Shown here: positions 8,155 through 49,622 of the stretch, piece after piece
Numbering within the stretch: position 1 is the first letter of the stretch
Layout: each line of letters starts with the position of its first letter
Assembly (NCBI GenBank): GCA_007859835.1
Contig: SJPJ01000001.1
Coordinates: forward strand, 7,696,019-7,745,640
From: Novipirellula herctigrandis
GTDB lineage: Bacteria; Planctomycetota; Planctomycetia; Pirellulales; Pirellulaceae
DNA: 49,622 nt
Direction of reading: 5' to 3'
Notes under the pieces: generated by a model
What the model saw: the letters and a program-made list of their open reading frames with translations, nothing else
Databases searched by the model: none
What the model was told of the DNA's origin: nothing
Translations under genes and position numbers: made by a program

Positions 8155-8227
8155 TCCCCTGTAGCTCAGTCGGTAGAGCAGCGGACTGTTAATCCGCCTG
8201 TCACAGGTTCGAGTCCTGTCGGGGGAG
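8155..8227 (+). tRNA. tRNA-Asn (anticodon GTT)
   Basis: A complete 73-base cloverleaf. The acceptor stem TCCCCTG pairs with CGGGGGA, with discriminator G. The D arm contains TAGCTCAGTCGGTAGAGCA, the anticodon stem-loop is GCGGA-CTGTTAA-TCCGC giving anticodon GTT, and the T arm is ACAGG-TTCGAGT-CCTGT. No CCA is encoded. The last five bases begin an 80-base direct repeat found again at the end of the window, so the gene is a likely integration site. Confidence 0.97.
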
Positions 8228-8302
8228 CTCGTCGAAAAGTATCGAACTGATCGACACACCAATTAACGCCCGGAAGCGAGAACTCTCGCCCGGGCGTTTT
8301 TT
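8223..8302 (+). repeat. Left copy of an 80-base direct repeat (putative attL)
   Basis: These bases are identical to 49543-49622, the last 80 bases of the window. The repeat comprises the last five bases of tRNA-Asn, a spacer and the rho-independent terminator. Sequences upstream of the two copies differ completely. A tRNA 3' end repeated about 41.3 kb away is the classic footprint of site-specific integration; that reading is inferred. Confidence 0.8.
8265..8302 (+). terminator. Rho-independent terminator after tRNA-Asn
   Basis: AACGCCCGG pairs with CCGGGCGTT (9 base pairs). The loop itself holds a GCGAG/CTCGC stem, and a run of six T follows. It lies 38 bases after the tRNA and should end the tRNA transcript. 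Confidence 0.9.
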
Positions 8303-8735
8303 CGTTTCTATCGGCTTTTTTGCGGTGTTTTTCAACTTCTCGCCGATCTCGAAAACCTCTCGGGTTCGAGAAGTCGCGTTCGGAGTACGGAGCGGAACCG
8401 CCCGTTCTCATCCGTTCTGCGAATACCCTCGCCCAAAACTCTCAGACTCTCTGATTAACAGAGACAAATAATTAACAGCCCGTTCCCATTTGAGAGTGCG
8501 AAAGAGAACCGCTTGGGCGAGCTCGTTTTTGAAGTCTCCGTCTGCCCCATGCTATTGCGGTGGCGGGACAGATGGGGCGCGATCCGATTTGCTAGATTTT
8601 TACTCTGGAATCGCGTCCACTTCCGGTTTCCTCTCTTTCGTCGGTTGCCGTGGTGTCATTGGCGGAAGTCAATTGATTGAAGAAAGTGGATGGAATCATG
8701 TCTGTAAGAGAACTGGTCAGCGATACGTTGGTCGC
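8303..8735. other. Non-coding stretch at the left edge of the putative island
   Basis: About 430 bases with no convincing gene. A small hairpin lies near 8350-8375 (TCTCGAAAACC pairing with GGGTTCGAGA). A short frame beginning at 8699 (MSVRELVSDTLVACG) is cut off by the insertion sequence end at about 8736 and could be a gene remnant, but it is too short to identify. Confidence 0.45.
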
Positions 8736-10254
8736 TTGTGGTCAAAAAAATCGGACGATCCTTTTAACCGACTAAATTCGAGTTTACGTCGGCACGTGAG
8801 TTCGAGTTTTGAGTCGAGATTGAAGCGAAGTTGTACTGTGGCAAGGAAAAATTGAACCAAAACCCACTCACCGCGCAGCAGATATCACATCGATTGTCTT
8901 GAGACCGAAGTGGCGCGAGCCAGTGATGGCCAAACGAATTATGCAACGCGTCGATACGATCGAAGCAAGCCGCCAAGGCGTTTGGTCGTTTCGATTTCAG
9001 CATGCATATCAGGCGGACGATAGATCGTCACGATCAGTTCGTTGTTTAGACCCTGATGATTCCGTTCGGTGTGATAGTATTCAAGGAAGCTTCGAACAGC
9101 CTTTCGAGTCGGGTTCTCGGCAAAGAGAATCCGTTTGTAAAGGCACTCGGATTTCAACGATCCGAAAAATCTTTCCAGGTGTGCGTTCAAGTTCGGGCTT
9201 CGCGGCGGCAACCGTACTGGCTTCACGCCTTCGTTGCGTAGGAAGTCTCGAAACGATTGACTGAATGTTGCATCGCGGTCCATGATCAAGTACTTTTTGT
9301 CCTTGAAAAAACCATCCTCATGGTTGGTCAGCTCGAGGGCAATTGTCTTCATCCACGCCTGGTTCGGATTGGTGGTGCAGCCAGCGAAATGGACACGGCG
9401 TGTTTTCAGTTCCATGCCAAACAGCAAATAGTAAGTCGTCAGTCCCTTCTTGGTCCAGACTTCCACGGTGGTGAAGTCACTCGCGGCCATCACGTCCCAG
9501 TACGCCTGCAAAAATGTCTCCCATGATCCTGTGCGTTTGCGGTCCGGTGCCGGCTCAAAGCCGTGGGCTTTGAGGATGTTGCCAATGGTGGAGTCGCAGA
9601 TGTTGTAGCCGAGGTCCGACAACGCACCGCTGATACGATCGTAGCCCCAAGTCGGATTCTCTTTCGCGAACTTCACGGTCAAATCAACGATCACTTGGCG
9701 CACCGTTGGCCGGCCATATTTCTTCTCTTTGCGATCGGAGTAGTCCCACCTATTGACAACCAATTGTCAATGCAATCGCAGGATTGTGTCCGGTGTGAAC
9801 AGAGTCCCAAACTGCTCAAGTGCTTTGCGTCCGAGAATTTTGCATTTGACTGCCAATCGACGGCGTTGAGCATCGGTCAGCAGGATTCGCTTCTTGCCGA
9901 ACTGCTCTTTGAGAACGGCATTTTCGGTGCGAAGGTACTCAATGGCATCTTGTTGTTGTCGATTGATCCAACTGGCAAGGATTACAGCGAACAACTGCCA
10001 CGGCTGTAGAATGAATTTCATCGGCGTCTCGGTGGTCGGGAAAACCCGAGACGATCATTGGTGCTGGGGCAAATGTAAACCAGCATTGACAAGCTGCTGA
10101 GCGATCAGAGCTTGAAGCCGTTCCGGTGAGAACGGTTGCGGGAAGATTGCCGACGAATTTGCAGACTTCAATTCGGCCGATATCCACCGATGTCGATAGC
10201 TTGAATGACAGGTTTTCGCGGTGTCTAATGCTCGGCGGAGTTTTTTTACCCCAC
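8736..10254 (-). mobile_element. Insertion sequence, copy 1 (near full length, IS481-like rve transposase)
   Basis: The element runs from about 8736, where the end reads TTGTGGTCAAAAAAATCGG, to about 10254, where the minus strand reads GTGGGGTAAAAAAACTCC. The two ends are imperfect terminal inverted repeats. Related right ends occur at 16507, 32976 and 47742. The inside carries a transposase gene with one internal stop codon. Length is about 1.5 kb. No target-site duplication is evident. The family assignment is tentative; the ends and the transposase are what the sequence shows. Confidence 0.75.
8939..10021 (-). pseudogene. rve-type DDE transposase with a single in-frame stop codon
   Basis: The frame is intact for 360 codons except for one TGA at about 9767-9769. 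The first part (84 residues, MKFILQPWQLFAVILASWIN) is a helical region with a leucine-rich segment. After ILRLH comes the stop, then QLVVNRWDYSDRK and the rest of the protein in the same frame. The catalytic domain has a degenerate first block (DFTTVEVWT), then LIMDRDATFSQ and HLERFFGSLKSE, and ends RLGGLLRSYRRVA. A CGA-to-TGA change in an Arg codon would explain the stop. Unless suppressed, the transposase is dead. Confidence 0.85.
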
Positions 10255-10608
10255 GGCACCTACCTCCAACTAGATTTATGTTGATTCATAGCCACCGGAT
10301 CTGCGTAACATGTTACGAAGGTGGACGGCGAGGGTAGGGCTTTGCCGACAAAACCGCAGACGCCATTCCGGCGGAGAGATCCCGATGTCGATTGCTCGAA
10401 AATCTGGTGTTACGGTGTTTAATGCGCGGCTGAGTATTTTGACTGGACGGGACCAATGTTGACTTGGCTAACCATGAGGGAGGGTGGTTGTCCCTCAGGG
10501 GCCTACACTTGCAGCTGATTTGCTCTCGTATTTGCCATTATCGATCGTTCCTTGTTTTGAGTGGGCGTTCACCGGATCGGGAAAGCAAAGCCCGTAGAAA
10601 ATGGGGCG
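10255..10608. other. Intergenic stretch with a solo end of a related insertion sequence
   Basis: No gene is visible. Bases 10341-10436 resemble 10147-10241, the leader inside copy 1. Shared blocks include TTGCCGAC, CGATGTCGAT and CGGTGT(T/C)TAATGC. The segment ends near 10450 with GAGTATTTTGAC, like the left terminus of copy 1. This looks like the remaining left end of a second, related element. A hairpin at about 10475-10500 (TGAGGGA pairing with TCCCTCA) may end the helicase transcript. Confidence 0.5.
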
Positions 10609-13600
10609 TCAGGATTGAGTGAAATGGTCGACCTGGACTGCTAGTTCTGCGTAGCGGCAGAATGTGTTAGCAAGTTGCATTTGACGAGGGGTTCGGCAAG
10701 CGGGCTCAAAGAGCTTGGGTGCGGCAACCATGATTGTCATGCACTTGGAGCGACTCGTTGCGACATTTAGTCGGTTGGGATCGTACAGGAACTCCATGCC
10801 GCGTGGGGCATCATCGGCTGAGGAGCTGGCGGTGCTGTAGATCAAAACCGGGGCTTCTTGGCCCTGGAATTTGTCGACGGTTCCGATTCTGGCTCGGTCA
10901 CCGATCGCTGCTGATAACGCGTCAACTTGTGCGTTGTAGGGGGCGACGATCAGAATGTCTTTAGGCTCGAGTTCGTTGATGTCGTTTTCCTTGTCGCGCC
11001 ATCGCGTTGAACTTGTCAGCAGGTGCTGCACGATCGCGGATACGACCGCGACTTCTTCGTCGCTGCGGTTTTGGTTGCCCACATGATCGACCGATACAAG
11101 CCGCAGGCCTGTACCGGAAAGTGGGCCATTACCGAGGATGCAGATGTTCTGGCACTTCGGTTCAGATTTTAGACGCCCCTCATAGAATTGTTCCGATGTG
11201 AAATCACACACGTCGGGATGCAAACGATAGGTATCGGCAAGAAAGATTCCCTGCGAGTCTTTGATCGTGGAGCCGTCTTGAATCAGATGGGCAAGTGCCG
11301 CGATGTCGGCCCCCTCGGGGTGAGCGGCGCGTTGTGGTTGTTCCAGTTGCTGCGGATCGCCCAACAAGATGACGTTCTTGGCGGCCCGCATTGCCGATAG
11401 TGCGACGGCCAACGACATCTGACCGGCTTCGTCAACGAACAGGTAGTCGAGGATTCCTTCGGCCGGTTCGCTCGACCAAAGCCAAGCGGTCGCACCCACG
11501 ACGGTGCCCGCGCTGACTGCATCGAGAGCGTCCGGGTTGCTGTTCAAAACGGTGATTCTGTCGACGGTGTCCTTTTCTCCCTTCTTTGGCTTGTGCGCAA
11601 AGGTGCATTTGCCTTCTTGGTCGAATTTGGCGGCTTCATTCAGTAAGTTCGCGATCACCTTATGGCTGACCGCTGTCACCCCAACCTTCTTGCCCTGCGA
11701 TGCCAGTGCCACGATCATGCGGGCGGCGTGGTACGTCTTTCCTGTTCCCGGCGGTCCCTGGATCGGAAGCACGCTTTGATCGAGATCCAACGCCACTGCG
11801 GTCGCGACCGAAACTGATTCACCGTTGAGCGGTAAGGAAAGCGTCAGTAGACGCGGTGGGCGCCCGCACAACAAGTCGGTTCGGGCACAGCGTTGGTTTT
11901 CATTGGGCCATGACGATGACGCAACTTCTCGAGCAAACTCAAGCAGAGAATCGGGTTGGGTGCCGGGGGCGACTAGATCGTGAACGAAAACAGATGTGGG
12001 ATGAAAGTCGCTCGATTTGCCAGTCTTCTTGATTGAAATGCTTCGCGACTGCGGATTGATATCGACAACCGTTCCGACGGTAAGACCATCGCGGTGCTTC
12101 AGGCAATGCCCGACACGCACCTTGTGTTCCTGGGCTGGATAGCGATAGACAGACGTAGGATTCCTGTCGCGACCCTGCGGCGAGATCTGTTCAACGAGTT
12201 CCAGACCCGCAACCGCCGCGTTCTCAAAAAGCAACTCCTCGTCTTCCAAATCGCGGTGGCGAAAGTACTCCCACCACACCGTTTTATCCTCGCGAAAGAA
12301 ATACTCCAGCAAATGCCCGGCAAGCCATCTTGCCTGCTGGGTCTCGGTGTCACGAACGTCGCCGGCGAGCAGTTTCAATTGCTCGCGGACATCAATGAAC
12401 GCAGCCTGACGCTCGATAGTTTCTGGTTTGCGATCGTCGCTCGATTGCGTCGGGCGGGGCAGCGGTCCGTGATCCAACGACACCAATGCTCGTTGTTCTT
12501 CTAGCCACTGATGTAACTTTAATGTCGATACGCAATCGTCCCGGTTGTAGGCCGCTACCAAGTCGAGCGTCTGCGGTTCAATCTGGTCGATGCCGCCCAT
12601 TTCGATTGCCCATTCGACTTCGCTGAGTGCCGGGCGGACATCGGCTAGATCAGCTCGTCGCTTGTAGCTGTAGAACGCCTCGAGTTTCTTGATCGAATAG
12701 CTCTCGACGCTCAACACCATGCTTTGCCGAACGACAGCATGCAAGTCGACAAACATTTCGCGCCGCAGAAAATCATCCAACGCATCTTCGTGCAATTGAT
12801 GACGGCTTGCCATCCGTTTTATCGCCGCCGGTTCGTACGGTGCGAAATGATAAACGTGAAAGTTCGGATGCGAGTTCTGCTGATCAATCAAGTCACGCAT
12901 CAGGCGATTAAAGGCCTCTCGTTCGGATTGGCGATGGAGGCTCCAATCCATCGAGTAAATCTCGTCTCGATCGACGTAGCCGAACAAGTATTCCAGCACT
13001 CCGTCGGGTGCGTGCGGATCGCCCTCGAAATCCAAGTAGATGTCACCGGGATCGGGTTCAGGCAGTCGCAAGAACCCCATCGGCGGCGGCTGCTTTTCCA
13101 GCGTTTCATCAGGCCAGACGATTGGCAAATGCTCGACGATGTTTTCACCGCTAGTTCGGCCGCGTTGCTGGATGCGAGCCTGATGGTGAACTTTCAGGAG
13201 TGACTCTTTGGATCCGACTGCAGGACGCTGGATACTTTCGGCATCAGCCTCTGCGAATGCGGTCAGTGTCGGCAACCCTTGGCGTCGAACTTCGCTGGCT
13301 TGCGACGTTTGAATTCCTGCGATAAATGACAAGTGGTCGTCGTTGCGTCGTCGATCATCACAGTGCGGGAACCAACGACAGACTTCGCAATGGGCGACCG
13401 GCTCGGGATAGAGGTTATGCAGGCAATCGCCCCCGGTTGACTCGATCAATTGGCGTTTGATCAGCTCGAAGTAGGCCCAATAGCCATCGAGTCGAAACAA
13501 CTCCTTCTCGAAAGCCTCCCGTTGATCCGTCGACGCTGGTTTGACCACATATGCAAACATGCTGCGACCGCCCTGGATCGCGGCAACACAATCCGAATAA

Positions 13601-14046
13601 CAGCAGAGTTGTAGAATCGTGCCGGCTTTGGTGTCCTGTGACAACTTGGTGTCGACGACCTCGTAACTCCAATCGCCAAGTTTGCTTTCTGCATCCACTC
13701 GAATCAGAAAGTCGGCACGACCCGCGAAAGGCCCGCAAGACAGCGCTGCTTGGAAAATGACGTCGACGCCTTCCCGCATCAGTTCTTCAGTAATTTCGGC
13801 TTGGCGAGTATCATCAAATTCGCTCAACGATTCGACACGCAACCCGCGGTCTTTCAATGATTGCAAATACGCATGTTCATGACGCAGGCCCTTTTCGGCG
13901 AGTCGATCCAGTCGGGCGTTAGAGCGAAACGGAATCTCCAAGTCCCCATTCGCCCGCCGCATATCGAGCGAAGTGGCGTGCCGACAGCCGAGGAAGTTTG
14001 CCAAATCGGTCGGCGACAATTGATAAGAGTTATTGGTCTTTCGCAC
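10609..14046 (-). CDS. RecB-like nuclease fused to an SF1 helicase (TM0106-type)
   Basis: A 1145-residue protein starting at GTG (14046) after a clear TAGGAG site. The N-terminal third resembles the TM0106 RecB/Cas4-like nuclease family: LSPTDLANFLGCRHATSLD, GRADFLIRV, the active-site pair in YEVVDTKLS, and a cysteine cluster CEVCRWFPHC preceded by another Cys, which may bind an iron-sulfur cluster. The middle has an RNase H/DnaQ-like fold (DIYLDFEGDP, and AAYNRDDCVSTLKLHQWL). The C-terminal third is a Dna2/UPF1-type helicase with Walker A GPPGTGKT at residues 764-771, DEAG box FVDEAGQMS, GDPQQLEQP, VDKFQGQEAPVLIYS and LNVATSRSK. Such fusions process DNA ends or may serve in defence; the role here is inferred. 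It stands alone among IS elements. Confidence 0.88.
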   Translation of the reverse strand: MRKTNNSYQLSPTDLANFLGCRHATSLDMRRANGDLEIPFRSNARLDRLAEKGLRHEHAYLQSLKDRGLRVESLSEFDDTRQAEITEELMREGVDVIFQAALSCGPFAGRADFLIRVDAESKLGDWSYEVVDTKLSQDTKAGTILQLCCYSDCVAAIQGGRSMFAYVVKPASTDQREAFEKELFRLDGYWAYFELIKRQLIESTGGDCLHNLYPEPVAHCEVCRWFPHCDDRRRNDDHLSFIAGIQTSQASEVRRQGLPTLTAFAEADAESIQRPAVGSKESLLKVHHQARIQQRGRTSGENIVEHLPIVWPDETLEKQPPPMGFLRLPEPDPGDIYLDFEGDPHAPDGVLEYLFGYVDRDEIYSMDWSLHRQSEREAFNRLMRDLIDQQNSHPNFHVYHFAPYEPAAIKRMASRHQLHEDALDDFLRREMFVDLHAVVRQSMVLSVESYSIKKLEAFYSYKRRADLADVRPALSEVEWAIEMGGIDQIEPQTLDLVAAYNRDDCVSTLKLHQWLEEQRALVSLDHGPLPRPTQSSDDRKPETIERQAAFIDVREQLKLLAGDVRDTETQQARWLAGHLLEYFFREDKTVWWEYFRHRDLEDEELLFENAAVAGLELVEQISPQGRDRNPTSVYRYPAQEHKVRVGHCLKHRDGLTVGTVVDINPQSRSISIKKTGKSSDFHPTSVFVHDLVAPGTQPDSLLEFAREVASSSWPNENQRCARTDLLCGRPPRLLTLSLPLNGESVSVATAVALDLDQSVLPIQGPPGTGKTYHAARMIVALASQGKKVGVTAVSHKVIANLLNEAAKFDQEGKCTFAHKPKKGEKDTVDRITVLNSNPDALDAVSAGTVVGATAWLWSSEPAEGILDYLFVDEAGQMSLAVALSAMRAAKNVILLGDPQQLEQPQRAAHPEGADIAALAHLIQDGSTIKDSQGIFLADTYRLHPDVCDFTSEQFYEGRLKSEPKCQNICILGNGPLSGTGLRLVSVDHVGNQNRSDEEVAVVSAIVQHLLTSSTRWRDKENDINELEPKDILIVAPYNAQVDALSAAIGDRARIGTVDKFQGQEAPVLIYSTASSSADDAPRGMEFLYDPNRLNVATSRSKCMTIMVAAPKLFEPACRTPRQMQLANTFCRYAELAVQVDHFTQS

Positions 14047-16500: not shown

Positions 16501-16506
16501 ATAGGC

Positions 16507-17230
16507 GTGTGGTCAAAAAAGTCAAACGAGCATTTAGGGTCAGTGAAAACCGAGGTTGCGTCGTCAGATACGGTCGGTATTTGGGTCGACAGCGATCCCG
16601 AATTAAGCGGTGCCATTAGAAAATTGTGTCAAAACGGCGGAACCGCGCAGCAGGCATCACACCAATGTCTTGAGACCGGAGTGGTGCGAGCGAGTGAGAA
16701 CGGGACGAGCTAAGCCGCACGTCGATACGATCGAAGCAAGCCACCGAGGTACTCGGTCGTTTCGATTTCAGCATCCATGTCCGGCGGTCGATCCATGGGC
16801 ACGATGAGCTCGTTGCCCAAACCCTGATGATTCCGTTCTGTGTGATAGTGATCGAGGAAACACCGAACAGCATTTCGCGTCGCGTTCTCGCCAAAGAGAA
16901 TCAGTTTGTAAAGGCACTCAGATTTCAACGATCCAAAGAATCGTTCTAAATGTGCGTTCAAGTTCGGGCTTCGCGGTGGTAACCGAACTGGTTTCACGCC
17001 TTCGTTGCGTAGGAAGTCTCGAAACGCCTTACTGAACGTTGCATCGCGGTCCATGATCAAGTACTTCTTGTTCTTGAGAAAACCATCCTCGTAGTTGGTC
17101 AACTCGCTGGCAATTGTCTTCATCCACGTTTTATTTGGATTGGTGGTGCAGCCCGCGAAGTTGACTCGCCGTGTTTTCAGTTCCATAACAAAGAGCAGAT
17201 AGAACGTAGTCAGGCCACTCTTGGTCCAGA
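16507..17230 (-). mobile_element. Insertion sequence, copy 2 (truncated by the IS3-family element)
   Basis: The right end reads GTGTGGTCAAAAAAGTC at 16507. The body then follows copy 1 closely until 17230 (TTGGTCCAGA), where the IS3-family element begins. The upstream half of the transposase and the left terminus are missing from this location and are not found across the IS3 element. Confidence 0.8.
16710..17230 (-). pseudogene. Transposase fragment, C-terminal half
   Basis: The frame reads in from 17230 as WTKSGLTTFYLLFVMELKTR and continues to SYRRAA. It keeps the LIMDRDATFSK and HLERFFGSLKSE catalytic blocks but lacks the N-terminal DNA-binding region and first catalytic Asp. It is about 85 percent identical by eye to copy 1 over this stretch and has no start or promoter of its own. 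Confidence 0.85.
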
Positions 17231-20404: not shown

Positions 20405-20435
20405 TCATTCACTCTATCCCAACAACAGATCCATC

Positions 20436-23377: not shown

Positions 23378-23416
23378 CAATCACCCCATCCATTGAATAC
23401 CCGAGGAAACCACGCT

Positions 23417-24745: not shown

Positions 24746-24758
24746 CCAGAGGCGATCA

Positions 24759-32972: not shown

Positions 32973-32975
32973 CCC

Positions 32976-38456: not shown

Positions 38457-38532
38457 TAAACGGATTATCCGCGTAAAAGTGCAATCAACCCGGTCCGACC
38501 GCGAGCTATTCTAATTGCTGTAAAGCCCCGAG

Positions 38533-40152: not shown

Positions 40153-40631
40153 GGTGACGTCACCTTCAGGTTGGCCAGTTGTTCAGGGATTTTGGGCGCC
40201 GCATCAACAATCAGTTGGCACAATGCTTCGATCTGCGATCGGTCATCGCTGCTCAGCCCGTCCTTCGCCGCACGAAGGTCCGTCATCAACGATTCCGAAG
40301 CTTTGTACAGCGGCAACCAGTCTGCTTCCGAGAGGTTGGTGTCGGCGGCCACTTCCGCCGTCCAACTGACAAGGTCTTTGATTTCAGCAAGCGACTGGGG
40401 GTTTGCATCGGAATCCGACAACCGTTCACGAAGCTTCACCGCAACGTCCGCAAGATCGCTTGGCCAATGCGCGGCGACCGCGTGATCGTCTTCAAACAGC
40501 GACGTTTTCGGCGTTGCGCCTTGACCACCGCAACCAACGAGAACGATCAGGAAAAGTAAAATCGGCATCCAGCCTGTGATTGCACCACTCACACAGGCAA
40601 GCAACCTAGGGAACACTGAGACTCGCATCAT
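40149..40631 (-). CDS. Hypothetical lipoprotein of the MoxR operon
   Basis: A 160-residue protein. A hydrophobic segment (MPILLFLIVLVGC) ends in a Cys in lipobox position at about residue 34. The mature part is helical (LADVAVKLRERLSDSDANPQ, SSDDRSQIEALCQLIVDAAP) with no known domain. It overlaps the moxR-like stop at its start and the permease start at its end by 4 bases each (ATGA), so translation is coupled. The signal region contains a REP-like motif (GGCATCCAGCCTGTGA). The function is unknown; by context it may be a periplasmic accessory of the permease. Confidence 0.7.
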   Translation of the reverse strand: MMRVSVFPRLLACVSGAITGWMPILLFLIVLVGCGGQGATPKTSLFEDDHAVAAHWPSDLADVAVKLRERLSDSDANPQSLAEIKDLVSWTAEVAADTNLSEADWLPLYKASESLMTDLRAAKDGLSSDDRSQIEALCQLIVDAAPKIPEQLANLKVTSP

Positions 40632-41578
40632 TGGTACTCCGGTGCTGGTACGCTGTCCAACAATCGATCCATTACACCATCAACATCATCCGTCGTCGTC
40701 AGCAAACGAACCGACAAAACTGGCCGAGCCACATGCGCGACATCGCTAGGCGTCACGAAATCGCGGCCTTGCAGCAACGCCCATGCTTGAGCAATCCGCT
40801 GCCATAGCAACATTCCTCGCGGACTCACACCTAACTGGATTGCCGAGTCATTGCGTGTTGCTTCTACCAAATCAACCAAATACTCTCGCACTCGCGAGTG
40901 CACCGTAATCGTTCGCACCATGTTCTGAATTCTCGCGAGCTCATCAAGCGATAGCACACTCTCCGACGCATCGTTTGGCAATTCCTCACGAGTCGCTGCC
41001 GCCAAGATGCCGAGCTGTGACGTGCGGTCGGGATAGCCGATTTCCAACTTGATGGTAAATCGATCCAACTGAGCTTCGGGCAACGGGTACGCACCGTGCG
41101 AGTCGATGGGGTTTTGTGTCGCGATCACGAAGAATGTTTTCGACAAGGTGTACTGCACCGCGTCAATCGTGACCTGTCGTTCTGCCATCGCTTCCAGCAA
41201 CGCACTTTGCGTTCGTGGCGTCGTGCGATTGAGTTCATCCGCCAACAGAATTTCAGAAAACACTGGCCCAGAATGGAACTCAAACTCGCGAGTTTTCTGG
41301 TTGAACAGATTGAACCCAGTTACGTCCGATGGCAGCAAGTCAGGCGTGCACTGCACACGCGCCAGTTTCCCGCCAACGCATGCTGCGATCGCTTTGGCTA
41401 ACGTCGTCTTTCCTGTTCCTGGCAAATCATCCAGCAACAAATGCCCATGCGAAAGCAAACAAGCGATCACCAATTCGATCGCGTCTTTCTTTCCCAGCAG
41501 CACACCATTGAGGTGGCGGCGGAGTCCATCGAGCGACTGAGCGATTGTTGGCAACTCGACCGCATTTCCAGCAATCAT
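40628..41578 (-). CDS. MoxR-family AAA+ ATPase
   Basis: A 316-residue ATPase. Start: the ATG at 41578 shares one base with the upstream stop (TGATG); a TTG three bases earlier is possible. Walker A is LPGTGKTTLA, Walker B is SEILLADELNRTTP, sensor 1 lies in FVIATQNPIDSHGAYPLPEA and the C-terminal helical lid contains LGVSPRGMLLWQRIAQAWAL. MoxR proteins act as chaperones that insert metal or mature partner proteins, usually VWA proteins, together with DUF58. In this operon no VWA protein follows; a lipoprotein and a permease do. Confidence 0.93.
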   Translation of the reverse strand: MIAGNAVELPTIAQSLDGLRRHLNGVLLGKKDAIELVIACLLSHGHLLLDDLPGTGKTTLAKAIAACVGGKLARVQCTPDLLPSDVTGFNLFNQKTREFEFHSGPVFSEILLADELNRTTPRTQSALLEAMAERQVTIDAVQYTLSKTFFVIATQNPIDSHGAYPLPEAQLDRFTIKLEIGYPDRTSQLGILAAATREELPNDASESVLSLDELARIQNMVRTITVHSRVREYLVDLVEATRNDSAIQLGVSPRGMLLWQRIAQAWALLQGRDFVTPSDVAHVARPVLSVRLLTTTDDVDGVMDRLLDSVPAPEYQ

Positions 41579-43803
41579 CAAACGAGCACCTCTTCCTGGA
41601 TCCGCCGTAACGTTTTGATCTTCAAATGCATCAACAATTCCTTCTCAAATTTGTTCTTGTAAAACGCTTCTTCTCGACCGGCAAACGCAGCTCGGTCAGC
41701 TACATCACAGAACCGACGCGCGGCTTCACGGACGTTCTCGTTCCCGGCCGTCAGCGATAACAGCCAATCGCGTTGCGGACATCCTGCGACACGAGGACAT
41801 CCCGCAAGCAGGGCGCGGGTTTGCAGAACTTTCATTGCCAGCCTCATGCGTCGCCGCGGCCACAGCAACGCGCCGACGGGATACAGAACACTCAAGCCAA
41901 GTTCGATCCAAAGCAGGCGAGTCCTCAACAGCACTCCACCGAGCACAAGCAGACCAATCGCGTGAAGCCAATAGTTCGTGGCATAGCGTTTGGCGACCAA
42001 CCAAGTCGAGGGCCTGTAGTTCGGTTGACGGTATTCAGGCGTCGGTTCGATCTCGAACCAACGACCATCATCGAGCCTGACTTCTACCCAAACGTGAACG
42101 TCTTCGGGCAAAACGTTGGTATGCCCGTCCGCGATATCGGCTGCCGACGGGCGAACATAAAACCCAGTGACCAAACGCGTCTTTAAACCAAGCTCGCGAA
42201 CCATCATTGCCGCTGTGGTTGCGAATAAATGATCGCCGCCACGACGCGTTTCTAAAAACTCCGCAATCGGATCACTCGACACGGTTTGGACGCTGCGATC
42301 AAACGTGAATTCAGTACGAAGACGCGAGACAATTGCCTGCAATTTCTCGTATGTGTGATCGCACTGCGCGGTCCAGTCCGTCGCGACACTCGCCAAGAGT
42401 TTTGGCTGACCATGCTTCACTTTTTCACTTGCGGGACGGTGAAAAGGCAACTTATTCCACAATTCGTCCTCCATCACGTTCGCCGACGCCACATTCACCA
42501 CCGTCAACGCTGGTACTTGGTCTCGTCCCGGCATGAAGTACGAGCCGTCGTCTTCGATGCCAACGAAGTCTTGTCGATCGACGTCCTTGATGTGTAATCC
42601 AGAGGTCATCATCGGAGTCGGCAGACGCGTTGAATCTAGACGCAGCACTTTCAACAGGTTGACGTCCGTCCTCGAAGCGGAAGGCTCACGTCCCGCCACC
42701 AATGTCGCTGGGTCAAAGAACCAAGCCGCACCGCCGATTTCCCGACGTGCCAATTTCTCGTTTCGTTGCGTTGAGCTGTTTGACCAATCGACACCATCAA
42801 ATGTGTCATAGCGGTTCATCGCCAAACGAATACCCGTGGGTCCTGCCCACTGCACGACAGCGTTCTCGACCGAATCATTCAAATGCAAATGCTTCTTCGG
42901 CGGCATGCGCTCCGTCGAGAACGAGCTTCCACCCTTTTCGCTCTTGGCCGTTTGCTCGTGCGTCTTAATCAGCTTCTCGGGCGTCAGCCCTTGCCGTCGC
43001 TCCCACTTGTTCTTCTTGGGCTCGCCAATGGAATCGCTGAACATGTCGAACAGTGTGGACTCAGTCGATTCCAAAAATAGTTCGGACTCAACCGCACCAA
43101 ACGATTCTGCGTGATCCTTCGCGGCGATCGCTGCATCACCCGTTCCCACACCACTGCGAGCCGCCGGGTCCGACCACTTTGAACCACCACTGGTTGGCAT
43201 GAAACCCGAGGTGAATCGCTTGGTTTCACCAAAACGGTCGCGCACGATCAAGCCACTCATCATGCAAATGACGATTGCTACGACAACCGAAGCGGGACGA
43301 ACCGCCGCGCCTCGACGGACTTGCTGCACGGCGCAGAGCTCAAGACGCTCCCAATGGTTTGCCACCAGATGCCACACACAAACCGCCATCCAAGCGATCG
43401 CTAACACCACGGCATAGCGATTATCGGAAATCGTGACCGCGAATAGCGTCAGGAATCCCGATACGACCAAAGACATCGCTCGCGTTCGGTTCGATCCGAT
43501 GGTCATCGCCACCGCGGCTGCACCAAAAGTGGTGAGCACTGTCATTTCAAATGCGATCGGGGAACCAGTCGATCTTGCGATCAAGGCAAAGGTGATCGGC
43601 GACGCCACGCTTGCCATGCAAAGATAATGTCGTCGGAAAGGTCTTATCATTTCCGAGGCGAATAAAATCGAAATCGTGAGCATTTCAGCAACGAAAAGCA
43701 ATCGAGATTCAAGAGGGTATCGCAAGCAACCTACCGTCGTGATTGCCAATATCGCCAACACGATTACTTCTCTAGATCTGCGTTCAAGCAGCCACGTCGA
43801 CAT
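41578..43803 (-). CDS. Transglutaminase-like membrane protein lacking the usual catalytic cysteine
   Basis: A 741-residue protein from the ATG at 43803 (MSTWLLERRSREVIVLAILA), overlapping the DUF58 gene by 20 bases. About six membrane spans fill the first 200 residues. A large extracytoplasmic region follows, then a transglutaminase-like domain: RRGGDHLFATTAAMMVRELG, LKTRLVTGFYVRP, EDVHVWVEVRLDDG and WFEIEPTPEY. In active families the first motif reads R-x-G-x-C-E; here the Cys position is Asp at about residue 524. The His (DVHVW) is kept and the Asp is Glu. A further span and a cytoplasmic tail end the protein. Members partner with DUF58 and MoxR. It may be a non-catalytic scaffold. Confidence 0.88.
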   Translation of the reverse strand: MSTWLLERRSREVIVLAILAITTVGCLRYPLESRLLFVAEMLTISILFASEMIRPFRRHYLCMASVASPITFALIARSTGSPIAFEMTVLTTFGAAAVAMTIGSNRTRAMSLVVSGFLTLFAVTISDNRYAVVLAIAWMAVCVWHLVANHWERLELCAVQQVRRGAAVRPASVVVAIVICMMSGLIVRDRFGETKRFTSGFMPTSGGSKWSDPAARSGVGTGDAAIAAKDHAESFGAVESELFLESTESTLFDMFSDSIGEPKKNKWERRQGLTPEKLIKTHEQTAKSEKGGSSFSTERMPPKKHLHLNDSVENAVVQWAGPTGIRLAMNRYDTFDGVDWSNSSTQRNEKLARREIGGAAWFFDPATLVAGREPSASRTDVNLLKVLRLDSTRLPTPMMTSGLHIKDVDRQDFVGIEDDGSYFMPGRDQVPALTVVNVASANVMEDELWNKLPFHRPASEKVKHGQPKLLASVATDWTAQCDHTYEKLQAIVSRLRTEFTFDRSVQTVSSDPIAEFLETRRGGDHLFATTAAMMVRELGLKTRLVTGFYVRPSAADIADGHTNVLPEDVHVWVEVRLDDGRWFEIEPTPEYRQPNYRPSTWLVAKRYATNYWLHAIGLLVLGGVLLRTRLLWIELGLSVLYPVGALLWPRRRMRLAMKVLQTRALLAGCPRVAGCPQRDWLLSLTAGNENVREAARRFCDVADRAAFAGREEAFYKNKFEKELLMHLKIKTLRRIQEEVLV

Positions 43804-45004
43804 CACGTACCTCCTTCCACAGGTTCGCCATCGCAGTGGCGAGGTGATCGCTGTGCCCAAGCAAGATCTCGCGAATCGCACCGCCTGCACGTCGACCACC
43901 GAGCGGATTGTTGATCTGAACCAGCACCTTACCACTGGATGAACCCGAGATCACCATTCTCACTCGCGCACTGCCAAGGCTGATCTGTTCGCAAGGTTCG
44001 CCATTGATCGGAATGCTGGCGAGTGCATCGAGCATCTGGCGCCGTGCTCGCGAGTCGAACCTGTACGCAAGCGAGCGATCCCCCAATCGAACTCTTGTAG
44101 CAATCCGCGATTGATGAAGCGAAGACAGAACGCTAGCGGCCACTCGAACACGGCGGGCAAGTGATTCACGACTTGCATGGCTGGTTGCTTCGTAACAATT
44201 CGTATCGACCAGCACTTCCAGTTCCACCGATTGCGGTCCACCACGCTCGGTCACAATCATGGAATCGGAGCGAGCGGAAGCAACCCAGTTCACATGCTTT
44301 GCAGAGTCGCCACGTCGAAACGCTCGCACGCCAACGAAGTCTCCACTGCGACCACCACGGCTGCCATCACCTTGGTCCGCGTTGGCTTTCCCGACGATCG
44401 GCATTACGCCCAACACGGGATAAATCTTTGGCCAAACCGTCAGCGGCTTGACGTCGCTTAATTCACGCCGCGCCGTCCAGATTCCGAATGGAAACGAACA
44501 GGTGACTTGCGGCTTGGTAACAGGATAATGGCCGCGAAGTGTTGGCGTCACATCAACGCAATAGTCAGCCGTGCAAAGAGGCGGGACGCATGCAAGACCG
44601 ATCGCTGGTTTTGCTTCGTCGCTTGAATCGCGATCCAAAAATCCTTCAACGGCCAGTCCCCACACAGGAAGTGGGATGCGATTGCGCACGCTCAACACCA
44701 TTCGGAACGGTGTGTCTTCGTGAACCGCATCGGTTTCTGAACGCAACCCACACCGCGTTACATGCACTGCGATCCACGGCCACGCCATACCGGTAACCAT
44801 GATCGCCGAGAGCGAAGCGGCTAGCGTCCAACCGATCGGACTGAAGTACAAACCGATCATGACACTGACCGCGGTTGCCAATGCAAACCAACCGACAGGT
44901 TCTTTGAGCCAATAGACGAAACGATTTGCCCACGGACAAAAGTCGGTCGTCATCAATCGCGACAACCAGCTTTCGCGCGCAGACGCTGCATGGACAATCG
45001 CCAT
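43784..45004 (-). CDS. DUF58 protein
   Basis: A 406-residue protein from the ATG at 45004, with GAAGG upstream. Two adjacent membrane spans (VGWFALATAVSVMIGLYF and WTLAASLSAIMVTGMAW, about residues 35-80) anchor it. The DUF58 signature is FVGVRAFRRGDSAKHVNWVA with SARSDSMIVTERG, preceded by PLTVWPKIYPV. After it comes a VWA-like fold (VELEVLVDTNCYEA) as usual. It is the first gene of the operon with transglutaminase-like, MoxR, lipoprotein and permease genes. DUF58 proteins work with MoxR ATPases in envelope-related processes that are poorly defined. Confidence 0.9.
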   Translation of the reverse strand: MAIVHAASARESWLSRLMTTDFCPWANRFVYWLKEPVGWFALATAVSVMIGLYFSPIGWTLAASLSAIMVTGMAWPWIAVHVTRCGLRSETDAVHEDTPFRMVLSVRNRIPLPVWGLAVEGFLDRDSSDEAKPAIGLACVPPLCTADYCVDVTPTLRGHYPVTKPQVTCSFPFGIWTARRELSDVKPLTVWPKIYPVLGVMPIVGKANADQGDGSRGGRSGDFVGVRAFRRGDSAKHVNWVASARSDSMIVTERGGPQSVELEVLVDTNCYEATSHASRESLARRVRVAASVLSSLHQSRIATRVRLGDRSLAYRFDSRARRQMLDALASIPINGEPCEQISLGSARVRMVISGSSSGKVLVQINNPLGGRRAGGAIREILLGHSDHLATAMANLWKEVRDVDVAA

Positions 45005-45040
45005 GAGAGCGCACCTTCGGTACGAGGGATTCAAGAGGTT

Positions 45041-45097
45041 GTGGCACAGGATTCCAACCTGTGAGCATCGCACTCACAGGCTGGAAGCCTATGCCAC
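45041..45097. repeat. REP-like inverted repeat, copy 3 (longest)
   Basis: GTGGCACAGGATTCCAACCT (45041) and, on the other strand, GTGGCATAGGCTTCCAGCCT (45097) match over about 26 bases with few differences and enclose a 4-base loop. It lies between the DUF58 start and a divergent-looking His-rich gene, where it could act as a transcription boundary. Confidence 0.8.
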
Positions 45098-45116
45098 GCT
45101 GAAACAACGAACGTAG

Positions 45117-45575
45117 TTACGCGTTCGGTGGCCCTCGGACCGACAGTCCGCAAAGAAAGGTGTCATCAACGCTAACGCGATTTACGATGCAGCGGAAACG
45201 CTCCATCAACAGCGGTGTCCAGTGGATTGCCGTGTCAGTGATGACGACGGCGTTCCGCGACGCAAAAAAGCTTTGGCAGATGCTGCACTGATCTGAATTG
45301 TGCTGGTTGGTTGGCGCGTCCGATGACGAATCTTCCTGATCTGACTGTGTAGAATCACAGTGATCGTGGTGGCAGCAACAACGATGACCGGCTTGGTGGG
45401 AAACGGCTCTCTGATGGTCCGCTGAAGCACAACCGACGTGAACCCAACCAGCGACATTGCTAAACAGCAAAGCAGCCAAGGTAAGGTACGTCGTGAAGGT
45501 TCGGAACGAATTCAAAGGTCGGTTTCCAACGCTGATAAAGAATAGTCGCCGAAATGAATGTTTCATTTGCGGCAA
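45117..45575 (-). CDS. His/Cys-rich exported protein (first of a related pair)
   Basis: A 152-residue protein (ATG 45575, or ATG 45566 giving MKHSFRRLFF). A hydrophobic signal-like segment (TFTTYLTLAALLFSNVAGWV) is followed by HVGC, a metal-binding-looking cluster (RCCCHHDHCDS), a polar linker, CSICQSFFASRNAVV and a C-terminus RGPPNA. The plus-strand gene at 46124 shows the same order: AWLHVAICDG, CSHCCHHHHDD, CLICQSLASP and RGPPALA. The pair resembles short DUF2946-like planctomycete proteins; copper or other metal handling is plausible but not proven. It is transcribed toward the DUF58 operon. Confidence 0.7.
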   Translation of the reverse strand: MPQMKHSFRRLFFISVGNRPLNSFRTFTTYLTLAALLFSNVAGWVHVGCASADHQRAVSHQAGHRCCCHHDHCDSTQSDQEDSSSDAPTNQHNSDQCSICQSFFASRNAVVITDTAIHWTPLLMERFRCIVNRVSVDDTFLCGLSVRGPPNA

Positions 45576-46123
45576 ATTTCAACGGTCCGACCAAGGATGT
45601 TGTGATTGTTACTGGATGCCTACGAACTGTCAATCGGAATGGTTCGTTTGTCAAATTCATCAAGTATTTTTGACGACACATTCGCCAAGTTGATGTTACC
45701 GAAAGACGTGACTTCCCGCTGGTTGTCGCAACGCCGATCGTCCAAAGTGAAACAGAACATTGTGGAACTGTATTTTTCGTATTGGCTCCGAACGTTTGGC
45801 CCGACTTTGCCGTTAGGAATGAACGAGCTTCTAACATCGGAGCAAGCTCAAACCAACACCGTCCTAGGGGAGGACCACTGAACTCGCAAGCCGCTTTGTC
45901 GGGCCCGGCAATGCGTTTCTGTCTGGATTCAGCGGACGCGGAAGATCGATTGCGTTTCGCCAAGTCATTGTAAGATGCCGGTCGGTCACCATGCGAACCG
46001 AACGATCTCTGGATTATTTTCCAGTCGCTTGACGAACCGAGTGTTTGCGGTCATCGTATTGATACGCAATTGTCTTTGGTCGGACCATTTTGCAACTCAA
46101 ACTCTCTGAAACGAACATCGTTG
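45576..46123. other. Intergenic region between the His-rich pair
   Basis: About 550 bases separating the two divergent His-rich genes. Open frames here (for example minus strand 45460-45963) have no protein-like features. Promoters for both genes should lie here. AACGGTCCGACCAAGG near 45580 resembles TTGGTCGGACC at 46076, a possible shared inverted operator. Confidence 0.45.
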
Positions 46124-46546
46124 ATGACTTCGATGATACGGCCATTCCTATCGAGTATCTTGTGCTGTGTGATTGTCTTTGGGCATGCACCAGCATGGTT
46201 GCACGTGGCCATCTGCGATGGTCATTCCCACACGGAAGCCATTGTTTCCGGCGAGAAAACTGAGCCGACTTGTTCGCACTGCTGTCATCATCACCATGAT
46301 GATGCATCGGCAATCGCCAAGGATCGTTTACGAAATGCCGGTGACGGCGGTTCACATCACGAGCATGATTCTGACAACTGTTTGATCTGTCAATCGCTTG
46401 CTAGTCCCTTCGGCGTAACTTGGCAATTGAGCCTGCCGCTCGTGACAGGTTTAGTTTCTCAGCCCGCTCTTTTGCCAGCCGACAGTGTGTTCGCGTCGGC
46501 TTCTCATTCGATCGCGCATCCTCGCGGTCCACCAGCCTTGGCTTAG
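46124..46546 (+). CDS. His/Cys-rich exported protein (second of a related pair)
   Basis: A 140-residue protein from ATG 46124 (MTSMIRPFLSSILCCVIVFG, then HAPAWLHVAICDG). The N-terminus is a signal peptide. The mature part has CSHCCHHHHDD, a second cluster SHHEHDSDNCLICQSLASPF and a tail HPRGPPALA. The layout matches its divergent neighbour at 45117-45575, so they are ancient paralogues. His and Cys density suggests metal binding. The function is unknown. An in-frame TTG at 46070 extends the frame but without a signal-like start. Confidence 0.7.
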   Translation: MTSMIRPFLSSILCCVIVFGHAPAWLHVAICDGHSHTEAIVSGEKTEPTCSHCCHHHHDDASAIAKDRLRNAGDGGSHHEHDSDNCLICQSLASPFGVTWQLSLPLVTGLVSQPALLPADSVFASASHSIAHPRGPPALA

Positions 46547-46921
46547 GCTCTCGCTTCTCGATTTGAGATAGGTTTTCTGCCTGTCTTGCTTGATCGAGAC
46601 GGCTGGATGCTATTTCCATCGTATCTCCACCACATTTGGGATGGGTTGTTGCGCAAATTTTGCGTGCATTTCTTCCTGATGGACTCACGACCTCATGCGT
46701 CCCACCGCGTGCGGTGCGATCAGTCAATGGTCCGACCAAACCCGATCGGTTGTGCTCGCGCGGTGGGGCTGCTTTTACATATCAAGGCTATCAGTGCGCC
46801 GCAAATCGCACGATAGCCAACAAAACATCGTGTGCGGTTTGTTCGTCGCCGCCGCACATGCCTGCATTGGTCATGCGGCACAATATTTCTCAGTAACTCG
46901 TTTTCTTGAAAGAAGACAAAC
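46547..46921. other. Intergenic region, no gene seen
   Basis: About 375 bases after the second His-rich gene. No credible gene is present; short frames show no known motifs. Confidence 0.5.
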
Positions 46922-47015
46922 ATGCGTAAGATGCTTCGTAACAACAAGGGCAGTACCTGGTAGAGTATGATTTGATCATCGCCGGTGTGGCGTTGATTTG
47001 TGCCGCAGCCGTTTC
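46922..47015 (+). pseudogene. Flp-type pilin remnant with a one-base deletion
   Basis: From ATG 46922 the frame reads MRKMLRNNKGST, then TGG and a TAG. Restoring one A (ACCATGG instead of ACCTGG) gives STMVEYDLIIAGVALICAAA then VSI, the conserved Flp/PilA pilin N-terminus with Glu at +5-like position and a hydrophobic helix. Resemblance ends at about 47015, where a prepilin-peptidase remnant begins. AAAGAAG precedes the ATG. Confidence 0.75.
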
Positions 47016-47230
47016 GATTCGCGAGGCTCGGCGGCGGCGACGCGAAGTTGATCGCTTCGCTGAGAATGTTGTTGGGGCCGGTCGGTATATTGATTTTGTG
47101 TTTTGGAATGTCCGTCTTTGGTGGCGTACTCTCGCTGGTCGCGATGCTTCGCGGCCAACGCGACTACGCCTACGTGCCAGCCATTACGGCTGGTTTCGTT
47201 TGGTATGTCGGTGTCGTTTCTGTAGTTTGA
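47015..47230 (+). pseudogene. Prepilin peptidase (A24/CpaA-like) C-terminal remnant
   Basis: In the frame that starts at GTG 47000 the sequence reads RLGGGDAKLIASLRMLLGPV, then GILILCFGMSVFGGVLSLVA. The GGGDxKL motif carries the second catalytic Asp of A24-family aspartic prepilin peptidases, followed by hydrophobic helices. Only about 70 residues remain; the first half with the other catalytic Asp is missing. It is joined directly to the Flp pilin remnant, implying an internal deletion in a former Tad/Flp pilus locus. Confidence 0.75.
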
Positions 47231-47255
47231 ATTTTCGCACAAAGGGATAAAGCAA

Positions 47256-47720
47256 ATGTCTAAATTACTTATGTTCGCCGCGATGGGGTTCGTATCCGCA
47301 CTCTCGTTGCCAACCGTCTTTGCCGACGATCACGCAGGGATGAAAAAGGAACACGAAACCGCACATGCCCAGCACGACAAGTGGGCGGCTGAGCATGCAA
47401 AGATGCGAGTCGAACATCTGCGAGCACTCGCCATGATTGCCAAGCTGCAAGCTCACATTTACGAGCATGAAGCCGAACTCGTCGAGCATGACGAAAAAAT
47501 TCGTGCTCACGAAGACCATGCGATGCACCATGCCGAAGAGATCGCGGCACATGAGAAGGACGGCGATGCAAGCAACCATGAGCATTTGGAAAAGGAGCAC
47601 GCCGCATTCAAAGCCGAACACGGGGCGATGGCCAAGAAGCATGATGAAGTAAAAGCTGGGCACGAAAAACTTCACGAGGTGCTGACCAAGTTGATGGAGT
47701 TGATGAAGAAGGTCAAATGA
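47256..47720 (+). CDS. Exported His-rich coiled-coil protein
   Basis: A 154-residue protein with ribosome binding site AAAGGGAT and signal peptide MSKLLMFAAMGFVSALSLPT (ending VFADDH). The mature part is one long helix rich in His, Glu, Lys and Ala, such as KKEHETAHAQHDKWAAEHAK and HDEKIRAHEDHAMHHAEEIA, with His spaced every 3-4 or 7 residues. This suggests a coiled coil whose His side chains line one face, well suited to bind metal ions or protons. It is the third His-rich exported protein in 2.6 kb. No family name is certain. Confidence 0.75.
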   Translation: MSKLLMFAAMGFVSALSLPTVFADDHAGMKKEHETAHAQHDKWAAEHAKMRVEHLRALAMIAKLQAHIYEHEAELVEHDEKIRAHEDHAMHHAEEIAAHEKDGDASNHEHLEKEHAAFKAEHGAMAKKHDEVKAGHEKLHEVLTKLMELMKKVK

Positions 47721-47741
47721 AACGAGTCCGTCTCCAATCCC

Positions 47742-47886
47742 GTGTGGTCAAAAAAGTCGAACGAGCATTTGGGTCGGTGAAATCTGAGGTGGGTTTGTCA
47801 TCTAAGGTCGAATTCTAGATCGAGATCGAGCCCAGATTCAGCGGTGCCGTTGAAAAACCGGATTGAGACGGCGGCACCGCGCAGCA
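47742..47886 (-). mobile_element. Insertion sequence, copy 4 (right-end tip only)
   Basis: GTGTGGTCAAAAAAGTCGAA starts 145 bases that match 32976-33121 almost exactly and stop at GCGCAGCAG, where the next element begins. Only the non-coding tip of the element is left. Confidence 0.8.
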
Positions 47887-49240
47887 GCGCCCTGTGTAAA
47901 AAATGATTTCGCACAAAATGCGAGGCATGTGAACTGGATTGCTTCGGCGACTTGCGGCAGTCGATCGCTGTCGCGGATGCAGAACGTGTTATTGAATCGG
48001 GAAGTGGGCATCGATTGATTCGATGGGCGCAGATGCTGCTCGGGCCCCGCCTGTGGCGGCAGACCAAACGCTTTTCATCCACGAACAGATTATGCTGCTC
48101 TTCGCGAGTAGCTTTTCAGCATACCGCCAAGTCGTTCTTGACAGCGGATGTCGCTGATGCGAATGGAATCGACAGAACAGCCAGACTTCTTCCCCGTCTT
48201 AGAGAGTGGCTTCTGAATGAGCTCATTTTCCAGGCTCTGGTGCGGTCGTGCGCGATGATAATGTTCGCCGAATTCGGTGCAGAGCAAACTCACGTGTGCT
48301 TCGCCGAAGACAATGAAGCGGTCGAGACACTCTTGCTCAATTGTTTGGGCAAAACGCTCGACGAATGCGACCGTGTTGGGTGAACGAAGTGCGGTCCGCT
48401 GGGTCTTGATCTTCTGATCGGCGAAGACCGCCAGGAAAGGCTTGGAGTATTTGCCGTCGTTGTCGTGCATTAGAATCTTGCAGGAAAGTCTTTCCGATTT
48501 CGTGTGACGAATAAACGCTTCCGCTTGCTCCACCATCCATGCCTGGTCGGGTTTGTAGGTGGCCGGAGAAATGTAGACACGCCGCGTTTCGATGTTTAGA
48601 AACACGAGGACAAATACGTCAAGTAGGCCGGTTCGTGATACGATCTTCTTGGAGAATAAATCGCATTGCCACATGGTTTTTGCGTGGCGTTTGATGAACT
48701 CGTCCCACATGCCCGGAGCTCGCTTCGGGCCGGTCTCATAGACGTTGCGTTTCAAGATGTTCTTCACCGTGTTGCGGGTGACGGACTGGACGCCGAGTTT
48801 CTTCAGTTCACCGAGGATCCGGGTGTAGCCCCAGTCGGTGTCCTTAGCGAGTTTCACGATCAGCTTTTCGATTTGCTCGGCGGTACGGGGACGACCGCGC
48901 TTCGGCTGTTTCTTCTTGTTTCCGGACTGCTCTCGGATCCAGACACGTATCGTTGACGGATGCACGATCGTCGCTAATTCATTCAACGCGGATCCGAGAT
49001 TCTTGGCGAACCGAATCAAGCGGTTCTTCTCGCGCTGAGTTAAGATGATTCTAGCCGGCAGCCGGCTTCTCAGAATCTGGTTCTCGGCTTTCAGGTAGCT
49101 CACCTGGCGGGCCATTTTCTTGTCGGTCGACTTGGTGATGACAAGCATCAGCAACGTGTCGATATTGCGAAAGCTGGTCATCGAGAAATTCGGAGAATTT
49201 TCAAACGAAACAAGGGACGGAGCGTACTTTTTGCACCCCG
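47887..49240 (-). mobile_element. Insertion sequence, second lineage, apparently complete
   Basis: The element starts at about 47887 (CGCCCTGTGTAAAAAATGA), directly at the break in the copy-4 tip, and ends near 49240. There the minus strand reads GCGGGGTGCAAAAAGTAC. These ends are imperfect inverted repeats. It encloses an uninterrupted transposase. The exact ends and any target duplication are uncertain. Confidence 0.7.
48090..49181 (-). CDS. rve-type DDE transposase, intact
   Basis: A 363-residue transposase with no internal stop. The N-terminus is helical and basic (ARQVSYLKAENQILRSRLPA), followed by an HTH region (NELATIVHPSTIRVWIREQS) and an HTH_21-like block (TDWGYTRILGELKKLGV). Catalytic residues lie in MWQCDLFSKKIVS, ILMHDNDGKYSKPF and AFVERFAQTIEQECLD. 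The end is RCQERLGGMLKSYSRRAA, a C-terminus shared with all transposase remnants in the window. A remnant of the same lineage lies at 32836-32972. It is the best candidate here, with the IS3 element, for a still active transposase. Confidence 0.9.
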   Translation of the reverse strand: MTSFRNIDTLLMLVITKSTDKKMARQVSYLKAENQILRSRLPARIILTQREKNRLIRFAKNLGSALNELATIVHPSTIRVWIREQSGNKKKQPKRGRPRTAEQIEKLIVKLAKDTDWGYTRILGELKKLGVQSVTRNTVKNILKRNVYETGPKRAPGMWDEFIKRHAKTMWQCDLFSKKIVSRTGLLDVFVLVFLNIETRRVYISPATYKPDQAWMVEQAEAFIRHTKSERLSCKILMHDNDGKYSKPFLAVFADQKIKTQRTALRSPNTVAFVERFAQTIEQECLDRFIVFGEAHVSLLCTEFGEHYHRARPHQSLENELIQKPLSKTGKKSGCSVDSIRISDIRCQERLGGMLKSYSRRAA

Positions 49241-49361: not shown

Positions 49362-49431
49362 CGATCGAGTGTGACGTTCGAACCAGAGATGTTTTGAGCA
49401 TGCCAAAGTTCGAACCCGTCACACACGATCG
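49362..49431. repeat. Long inverted repeat next to the right island boundary
   Basis: The arm CGATCGAGTGTGACG then TTCGAAC (49362-49383) faces GTTCGAACCCGTCACACACG then ATCG (49408-49431). They match with one substitution and a 2-base insertion, and are separated by 24 bases. Recombinase or excisionase arm sites, or an RNA hairpin, are possible. Confidence 0.7.
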
Positions 49432-49473
49432 GCAAGCGACCGAAACGGACTCGGAACTCGCAAACCCATGACA

Positions 49474-49506
49474 TCTCTTCACTTAAGTGAGAGAGAATTT
49501 TTTCGA
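49474..49506 (+). terminator. Possible rho-independent terminator
   Basis: TCTCTTCACTTAAGTGAGAG, containing the 12-base perfect palindrome TCACTTAAGTGA, is followed by AGAATTTTTTCG. The T run after a palindrome suits a terminator, but no gene on this strand needs one, so it could instead be a protein-binding site. Confidence 0.4.
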
Positions 49507-49542
49507 AGTGTTACGGTAAGGGTACGATAAGGGGCCTGCACA

Positions 49543-49622
49543 GGGAGCTCGTCGAAAAGTATCGAACTGATCGACACACCAATTAACGCCCGGAAGCGAG
49601 AACTCTCGCCCGGGCGTTTTTT
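49543..49622 (+). repeat. Right copy of the 80-base direct repeat (putative attR)
   Basis: This is identical to 8223-8302 and includes the whole terminator hairpin (49585-49622). The upstream sequence is unrelated to tRNA-Asn. The window ends inside or at the end of the repeat, so its full length is unknown. Confidence 0.8.

Follow-up and report, generated by a model that had tools for sequence, protein, structure and literature searches.

Repeats behind tRNA-Asn in Novipirellula herctigrandis and a probable hotspot for stacked islands in planctomycetes

A 41.3-kb stretch bracketed by direct repeats behind a tRNA-Asn gene of Novipirellula herctigrandis is probably an old and decayed unit, now without a recombinase, of a series of islands that were stacked behind this tRNA gene, mostly by serine recombinases. 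The window analyzed, i.e., the whole stretch of 49,622 nucleotides, corresponds to G000:C1:7696019-7745640 in a genome of 9.5 Mb. In the mechanism we propose, the 289-base repeat would be the junction module, duplicated on insertion, of a hotspot for site-specific integration at the tRNA-Asn 3' end. Mobile elements, which in this family often come with large serine recombinases, would cross over in the last tRNA bases (approximately GGGAGC), and the attP of the element would supply these bases plus a terminator module, so that the tRNA would keep both its end and its terminator. The displaced original module would then mark the distal border of the inserted DNA. Later arrivals would enter beside the tRNA and push older ones downstream, and same-strand arrays would therefore arise. 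As for the 41.3-kb unit itself, we infer that its recombinase was lost and that IS481-like elements inserted at both ends.

The repeat and the DNA between its copies

The first-pass annotation had described a perfect repeat of 80 bases. These 80 bases are indeed exact, since the window ends with 80 bases identical to 8223-8302 and no longer suffix of it recurs, but the real repeat is longer, with 289 aligned columns, 259 identities, and 5 gaps (90% identity, E 2e-111, N counted as mismatches). Its length and its family-wide occurrence rule out an ordinary short att repeat. The sequences outside the repeat differ, as had been claimed, with the tRNA before copy 1 and unrelated, non-tRNA sequence before copy 2, which ends just before kptA (RNA 2'-phosphotransferase, PF01885). 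Thus, the arrangement of a tRNA-site island, a regenerated tRNA with its displaced fragment as a direct repeat, is present, with a tRNA portion of only 5-6 bases inside the repeat. In the 149,622 bases scanned, the tRNA was the sole Rfam hit at gathering thresholds. The genome contains one full distal module copy; to the right of copy 2 (7.74-7.82 Mb, filters off), the next best matches scored 10.6 bits, on the opposite strand inside copy 2 itself, and 9.6 bits.

Table 1. Features of the window (positions within the 49,622 nucleotides) and left half-site classes in relatives
Feature	Position	Strand	Evidence, remarks, or genomes
tRNA-Asn (anticodon GTT), target gene	8155-8228	+	ARAGORN; Rfam RF00005, 70.7 bits
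Repeat copy 1	8223-8511	+	tRNA-side junction; last tRNA bases, GGGAGC boundary, terminator-like hairpin, conserved tail
Broken IS481-like transposase remnant beside copy 1	8734-10060	-	Self-comparison; NCBIfam IS481 below cut-off
TM0106-family RecB-like nuclease with helicase domain	10609-14046	-	
Further remnant of the same IS-like repeat	16505-17230	-	Self-comparison
IS3-family transposase ORF	17607-18482	+	Above NCBIfam cut-off
Amidase, DUF4440 protein, MarC, two OprB porins, two PF00144 ORFs (serine hydrolase/beta-lactamase fold)	18791-32317		
Further remnant of the same IS-like repeat	32973-33452	-	Self-comparison
DNA polymerase IV	33534-34739	-	
IS481-like transposase ORF	34753-35676	-	NCBIfam below cut-off
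Block collinear with both congeners	37017-47683	-	DUF1559, ArsP-like permease, MoxR ATPase, transglutaminase, weak DUF58
IS481-like remnant and transposase ORF (48090-49181) beside copy 2	47739-49181	-	Self-comparison; NCBIfam/Pfam
Proposed left half-site of the distal junction	49490-49542	+	Extent chosen by us; weakly similar to half-sites of relatives
Repeat copy 2, first 80 bases	49543-49622	+	Distal junction; the rest lies beyond the window, up to just before kptA
Half-site class A			G083, G075, G025, G159, G131, G014, G092
Half-site class B			G002, G061, G013
Half-site class C			G061, G134, G160
Half-site class D, looser			G160, G060, G147
Half-site class E			G129, G083, G069, G114, G132

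Pfam detected no Phage_integrase, Resolvase, or Recombinase family between the copies in any of the 92 listed ORFs of at least 100 aa, which were scanned in two sets (21 and 73, two being common to both); the hits were transposase-type domains and unrelated families. The absence of a tyrosine or serine recombinase between the repeats, which had been deduced from the translations, is thereby borne out for ORFs of this size. The unit itself has neither the integrase on board that is looked for in a tRNA-site island nor the large serine recombinase near its junction that is looked for in the hotspot. Among 10 proteins scanned for defense genes, only partial helicase or AAA matches were obtained, in two. 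GC content is flat throughout (0.52-0.56), which rules out composition as an island signal. In the self-comparison, one IS481-like element is represented by ~10 remnants over ~150 kb (window 8734-10060, 16505-17230, 32973-33452, and 47739-47887, then on contig C1 up to ~7.853 Mb), and all matches have one orientation, which would not be expected from random insertion. The right flank contains an ORF of 2951 aa (L056:6216-15071).

The unit was compared with two congeners, G001 and G002. The stretch of 37.0-47.7 kb is matched collinearly by G002:C18 and G001:C1, and for 8.5-37 kb there are only patchy matches. On either side of the collinear stretches, the congeners showed no match to the compared stretch of the N. 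herctigrandis genome, and the G002 DNA left of the block matches scattered places in it. Because of this scatter and the collinearity of the right part, the 41.3 kb need not have arrived as one piece, and the right part speaks against a simple recent island. Conserved gene order in relatives without a repeat or an empty site, which the first-pass annotation had named as evidence against an island, comes close to being found for 37.0-47.7 kb, but with no flanking match there.

Comparison of module matches and of neighbor collinearity gave no clean empty tRNA-Asn site in the two congeners: there is no module match at the tRNA-Asn of G001 and a weak one (15.1 bits) at that of G002, and the upstream neighbors are not collinear. 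G002 has two module copies of ~290 bases and G001 only the last 113 module bases, before a kptA homologue, none of them beside a called tRNA-Asn. Since kptA follows both the module in N. herctigrandis and the module end in G001, with a left junction in each and different DNA beyond, the two may be a parallel case of stacking. kptA and kptA fragments recur in the genus (L008:5845-6414, G001:C6, G002:C3, and G002:C39).

Module copies, boundary, and left half-sites in the family

A sequence-only model built from four copies matched in 51 of the 149 genomes sampled from the family, N. herctigrandis included, and the module often follows tRNA-Asn directly. At the boundary, 54 copies were read (the partial copy of G001 stands outside these rows): a called tRNA-Asn directly precedes 19 of them, an uncalled tRNA-like sequence precedes 3 (L101 twice, and L130, regrouped from an original 33 without a called tRNA), and neither is present before the other 32. 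The tRNA-like sequences, uncalled by ARAGORN, precede module copies in L101 (G155:C173) and L130 (G025:C4); the two tRNA-like/module copies of L101 are identical over the stretch compared. A pattern scan of named genomes yielded 22 stretches; 21 belong to Planctomycetes, and the remaining one, from Plantactinospora, we took as a chance match. For 11 of these stretches ARAGORN called a tRNA-Asn where the pattern matched, with L166 cut by a contig edge. Among the named holders of the module are Rhodopirellula rubra and Aporhodopirellula aestuarii, together with the isolates TBK1r and SV_7m_r (on their chromosomes).

The position of the copies is that of a tandem array, with same-strand junction copies downstream of the tRNA. 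On eight contigs with tRNA-Asn, further copies lie on the same strand in 12 of 12 cases and downstream in 11 of 12, at distances of 2.5 to 153 kb, the single exception being a weak 100-base partial match 7.6 Mb away in the N. herctigrandis genome. This test was compiled by hand; in G160, where no module matched beside the tRNA, the tRNA itself served as the reference, and a weak second copy in G114:C4, also same-strand and downstream, was left uncounted. Multi-copy contigs are single-strand in 13 of 14 cases, or in 12 of 13 if the two pieces at G002:C24 are one copy, which is probable.

GGGAGC is present at the tRNA end in 18 of the 19 tRNA-linked copies. When there is no called tRNA, a G(G/C)GAGC start is found within 12 bases of the expected place in 25 of 33 copies and is absent in 8. 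Six of these eight belong to half-site class E and read TTTGAGC, which looks as if it sits behind decayed inner tRNA sequence; given this reading and the partly tRNA-derived look of the class, its crossover site may lie elsewhere.

The sequences to the left of the copies, the left half-sites, are recurrent and common to different genera, and we assigned them to classes A-E (Table 1). Some classes are apparently tied to one recombinase type, although these matches rest on small numbers: the unit to the left of class E contains a serine recombinase of one type in 3 of 6 cases (G083, the second copy of G069, and G132), with no recombinase match in the left unit of the other three (G129, the third copy of G069, and G114), and the class C units of G160 and G061 contain another type, 96% identical to each other. 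In G134, also class C, a PF07508 gene lies inside the unit. The G001 junction resembles class C at 12-14 of 20 bases (13 is reached by 8 of 39,960 background 20-mers), and the recombinase upstream of it is of the class C-linked type, with 64% identity. If these ties are real, a hotspot with several half-site classes would give natural sets of matched recombinases and sites.

The half-site proposed for copy 2 is a weak fit as a member of the common class, and no class fits it well. With the common-class model (16 training rows, classes A and B merged, two rows added by eye), its score was equalled or exceeded at 150 of 99198 window positions. Two units of ~110 kb from different genera, G061:C1:6526985-6636098 and G013:C1:2088146-2198164, have the same half-site class at their end, which suggests that they are one kind of large mobile element.

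Recombinases near the module copies

Large serine recombinases lie close to junction copies in the family. We performed a proximity test on 62 copies from the 29 of 50 other genomes with matches, using 132 PF07508 matches and the 150 listed of 377 PF00589 matches; G147 was omitted, as was the second piece at G002:C24, which is part of the same copy, and the sample includes some genomes in which a nearby recombinase was known beforehand. Within 10 kb of a copy there were 22 of the 132 PF07508 genes versus 0.64 expected, and 1 of the 150 PF00589 genes listed (of 377 matches) versus 0.73 expected; because contigs are short, the expected numbers are, if anything, too high. Counted by copy, the same contig carries a PF07508 gene no more than 15 kb away for 27 of 62 and none for 35. 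The IMG/VR pieces L169 and L171 contain a junction with a serine recombinase, and L168 contains a junction with a recombinase fragment. Thus, relatives back the reading of att-like repeats at tRNA-Asn as traces of an integrated island and add a hotspot to it, but the enzymes near the copies are serine, not tyrosine, recombinases.

Alternatively, the module could be a dispersed non-autonomous repeat or terminator element, with its two copies in the window coincidental and the DNA between them ordinary chromosome. We consider this unlikely. Copies without any called tRNA nearby (in G002 and G025), the 37.0-47.7 kb common to the congeners, and the flat composition would all fit, but the strand and side of the copies relative to tRNA-Asn, a boundary that coincides with the tRNA end and has recurrent half-sites to its left, and the proximity of recombinases speak against it.

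In the N. herctigrandis genome, a PF07508 profile search with an E limit of 1 returned 6 matches, none of them at the tRNA-Asn locus; tblastn with six serine-recombinase queries gave nothing at E 1e-4 in 7.656-7.860 Mb, and Pfam gave no recombinase in 20 flanking ORFs chosen by size (7.656-7.696 and 7.76-7.86 Mb). Possible helpers in trans, the serine recombinases encoded at 2.47, 2.53, and 3.52 Mb, are far from the unit, and no tRNA was present in the stretches fetched around them.

It is less probable again that a tyrosine integrase or some other enzyme made the 41.3-kb unit and that serine recombinases merely share the hotspot. Such an origin is compatible with a unit that has no recombinase, with the ~20 bases of tRNA-like T-arm retained in one G014 copy and the tRNA-derived look of class E, and with the tyrosine recombinases that lie, beside serine ones, inside the ~110-kb units of G061 and G013. 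However, even within 15 kb of a copy there is just 1 of the 150 tyrosine integrases listed (of 377 matches), and the repeat here holds only 5-6 tRNA bases.

Returning to islands stacked mostly by serine recombinases, we tentatively suggest a wider picture, somewhat less likely to be right than wrong. One tRNA-Asn terminus may serve as a family-wide docking site for several unrelated serine-recombinase lineages, each with its own left half-site and all with a common terminator module of ~250 bases. Units could then stack, shuffle, and be moved in trans by each other's recombinases, and units without a recombinase, such as the 41.3 kb, could stay mobilizable.

Assembly, known systems, and the terminator

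A 61-N run on the left and a 10-N run on the right delimit the window, which is a single contig, and therefore the earlier remark that the window end could be an assembly break at a repeat fits: the contig stops within copy 2, where 10 N (7745641-7745650) interrupt the repeat, which resumes in register beyond and is followed by kptA. The halves of copy 2 sit in two contigs joined by scaffolding. An artefact, whether an 80-base contig end copied from copy 1 or a wrong scaffold join, is highly improbable: the contig does stop exactly where identity stops, but what precedes the 80 bases is not tRNA sequence, the module continues past the gap and leads into kptA, as it partly does in G001, and identity over the first 71-72 aligned columns is 92-100% in 6 of 6 pairs of four genus copies (85-91% in the remainder), so that exact identity of the first 80 bases need not be an artefact.

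Islander-type genomic islands likewise insert behind a tRNA 3' end, have a direct repeat at the far end, and are known in tandem arrays, but they are tied to tyrosine integrases and generally keep a tRNA fragment of more than 5-6 bases. The SCC composite islands of staphylococci share with the present case the use of serine recombinases (Ccr) and the stacking of units at one gene end, and the CcrB and XisF models pick up three of the family's recombinases that were tested, in each case with scores below cut-off. The SCC target is a protein gene, unlike tRNA-Asn, and we know of no 250-base terminator module in SCC.

According to PMC3218068, it is rare for serine-recombinase elements to use tRNA genes; examples are phage phiRSM1 (tRNA-Ser) and the Mycobacterium AICEs (tRNA-Leu). 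They have the type of enzyme and of target in common with our hotspot but involve other bacteria and other tRNAs, and the available part of that source mentions no terminator module or multi-class hotspot (PMC3218068). The accessible portions of the open literature, subscription papers and preprints aside, yielded no description of a tRNA-Asn hotspot (PMC4383910, PMC10654092, PMC12424338, PMC12884075, PMC3218068). Serine-recombinase integration at tRNA genes thus already has rare precedents, and the present hotspot would be a variant of it. If our reading is correct, the module would be a means of locating island ends in planctomycetes; searches for tRNA fragments could miss such islands because the repeat holds so little tRNA sequence. 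It also raises the possibility that such elements must restore the tRNA terminator and not just the 3' end.

The DNA to the right of the distal copy of G013 matches that to the right of the tRNA-linked copy of G170 from the first base (1028 bases, 88%; 3324 bases in total). In the comparisons for G134 and G069, the first matching pieces measure 152 and 100 bases, some of which may belong to the module tail, and the totals are 3836 and 3000 bases. Because a PF07508 gene lies 8-11 kb on in the DNA right of the G170 and G134 junctions, which is probably an older island, the comparison of G013, G170, and G134 points to accretion beside the tRNA rather than to a bare site.

Within the first 115 bases of the module, a hairpin before a T-rich tail reaches -10 kcal/mol or below in 42 of 42 copies and -17 kcal/mol or below in 41 of 42 (N in copy 2 was read as A). 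In bases 130-245 of these copies the two thresholds were reached by 19 and 2 of 42, and in simply shuffled sequence by 17 and 5 of 42. Such a conserved hairpin, predicted from the sequence, fits elements that would bring a terminator for the tRNA they follow. The 42 aligned copies share a conserved motif in the module tail (approximately window 8410-8511) that resembles AACTCTC-GA-CTCTCTG-TTAACA.
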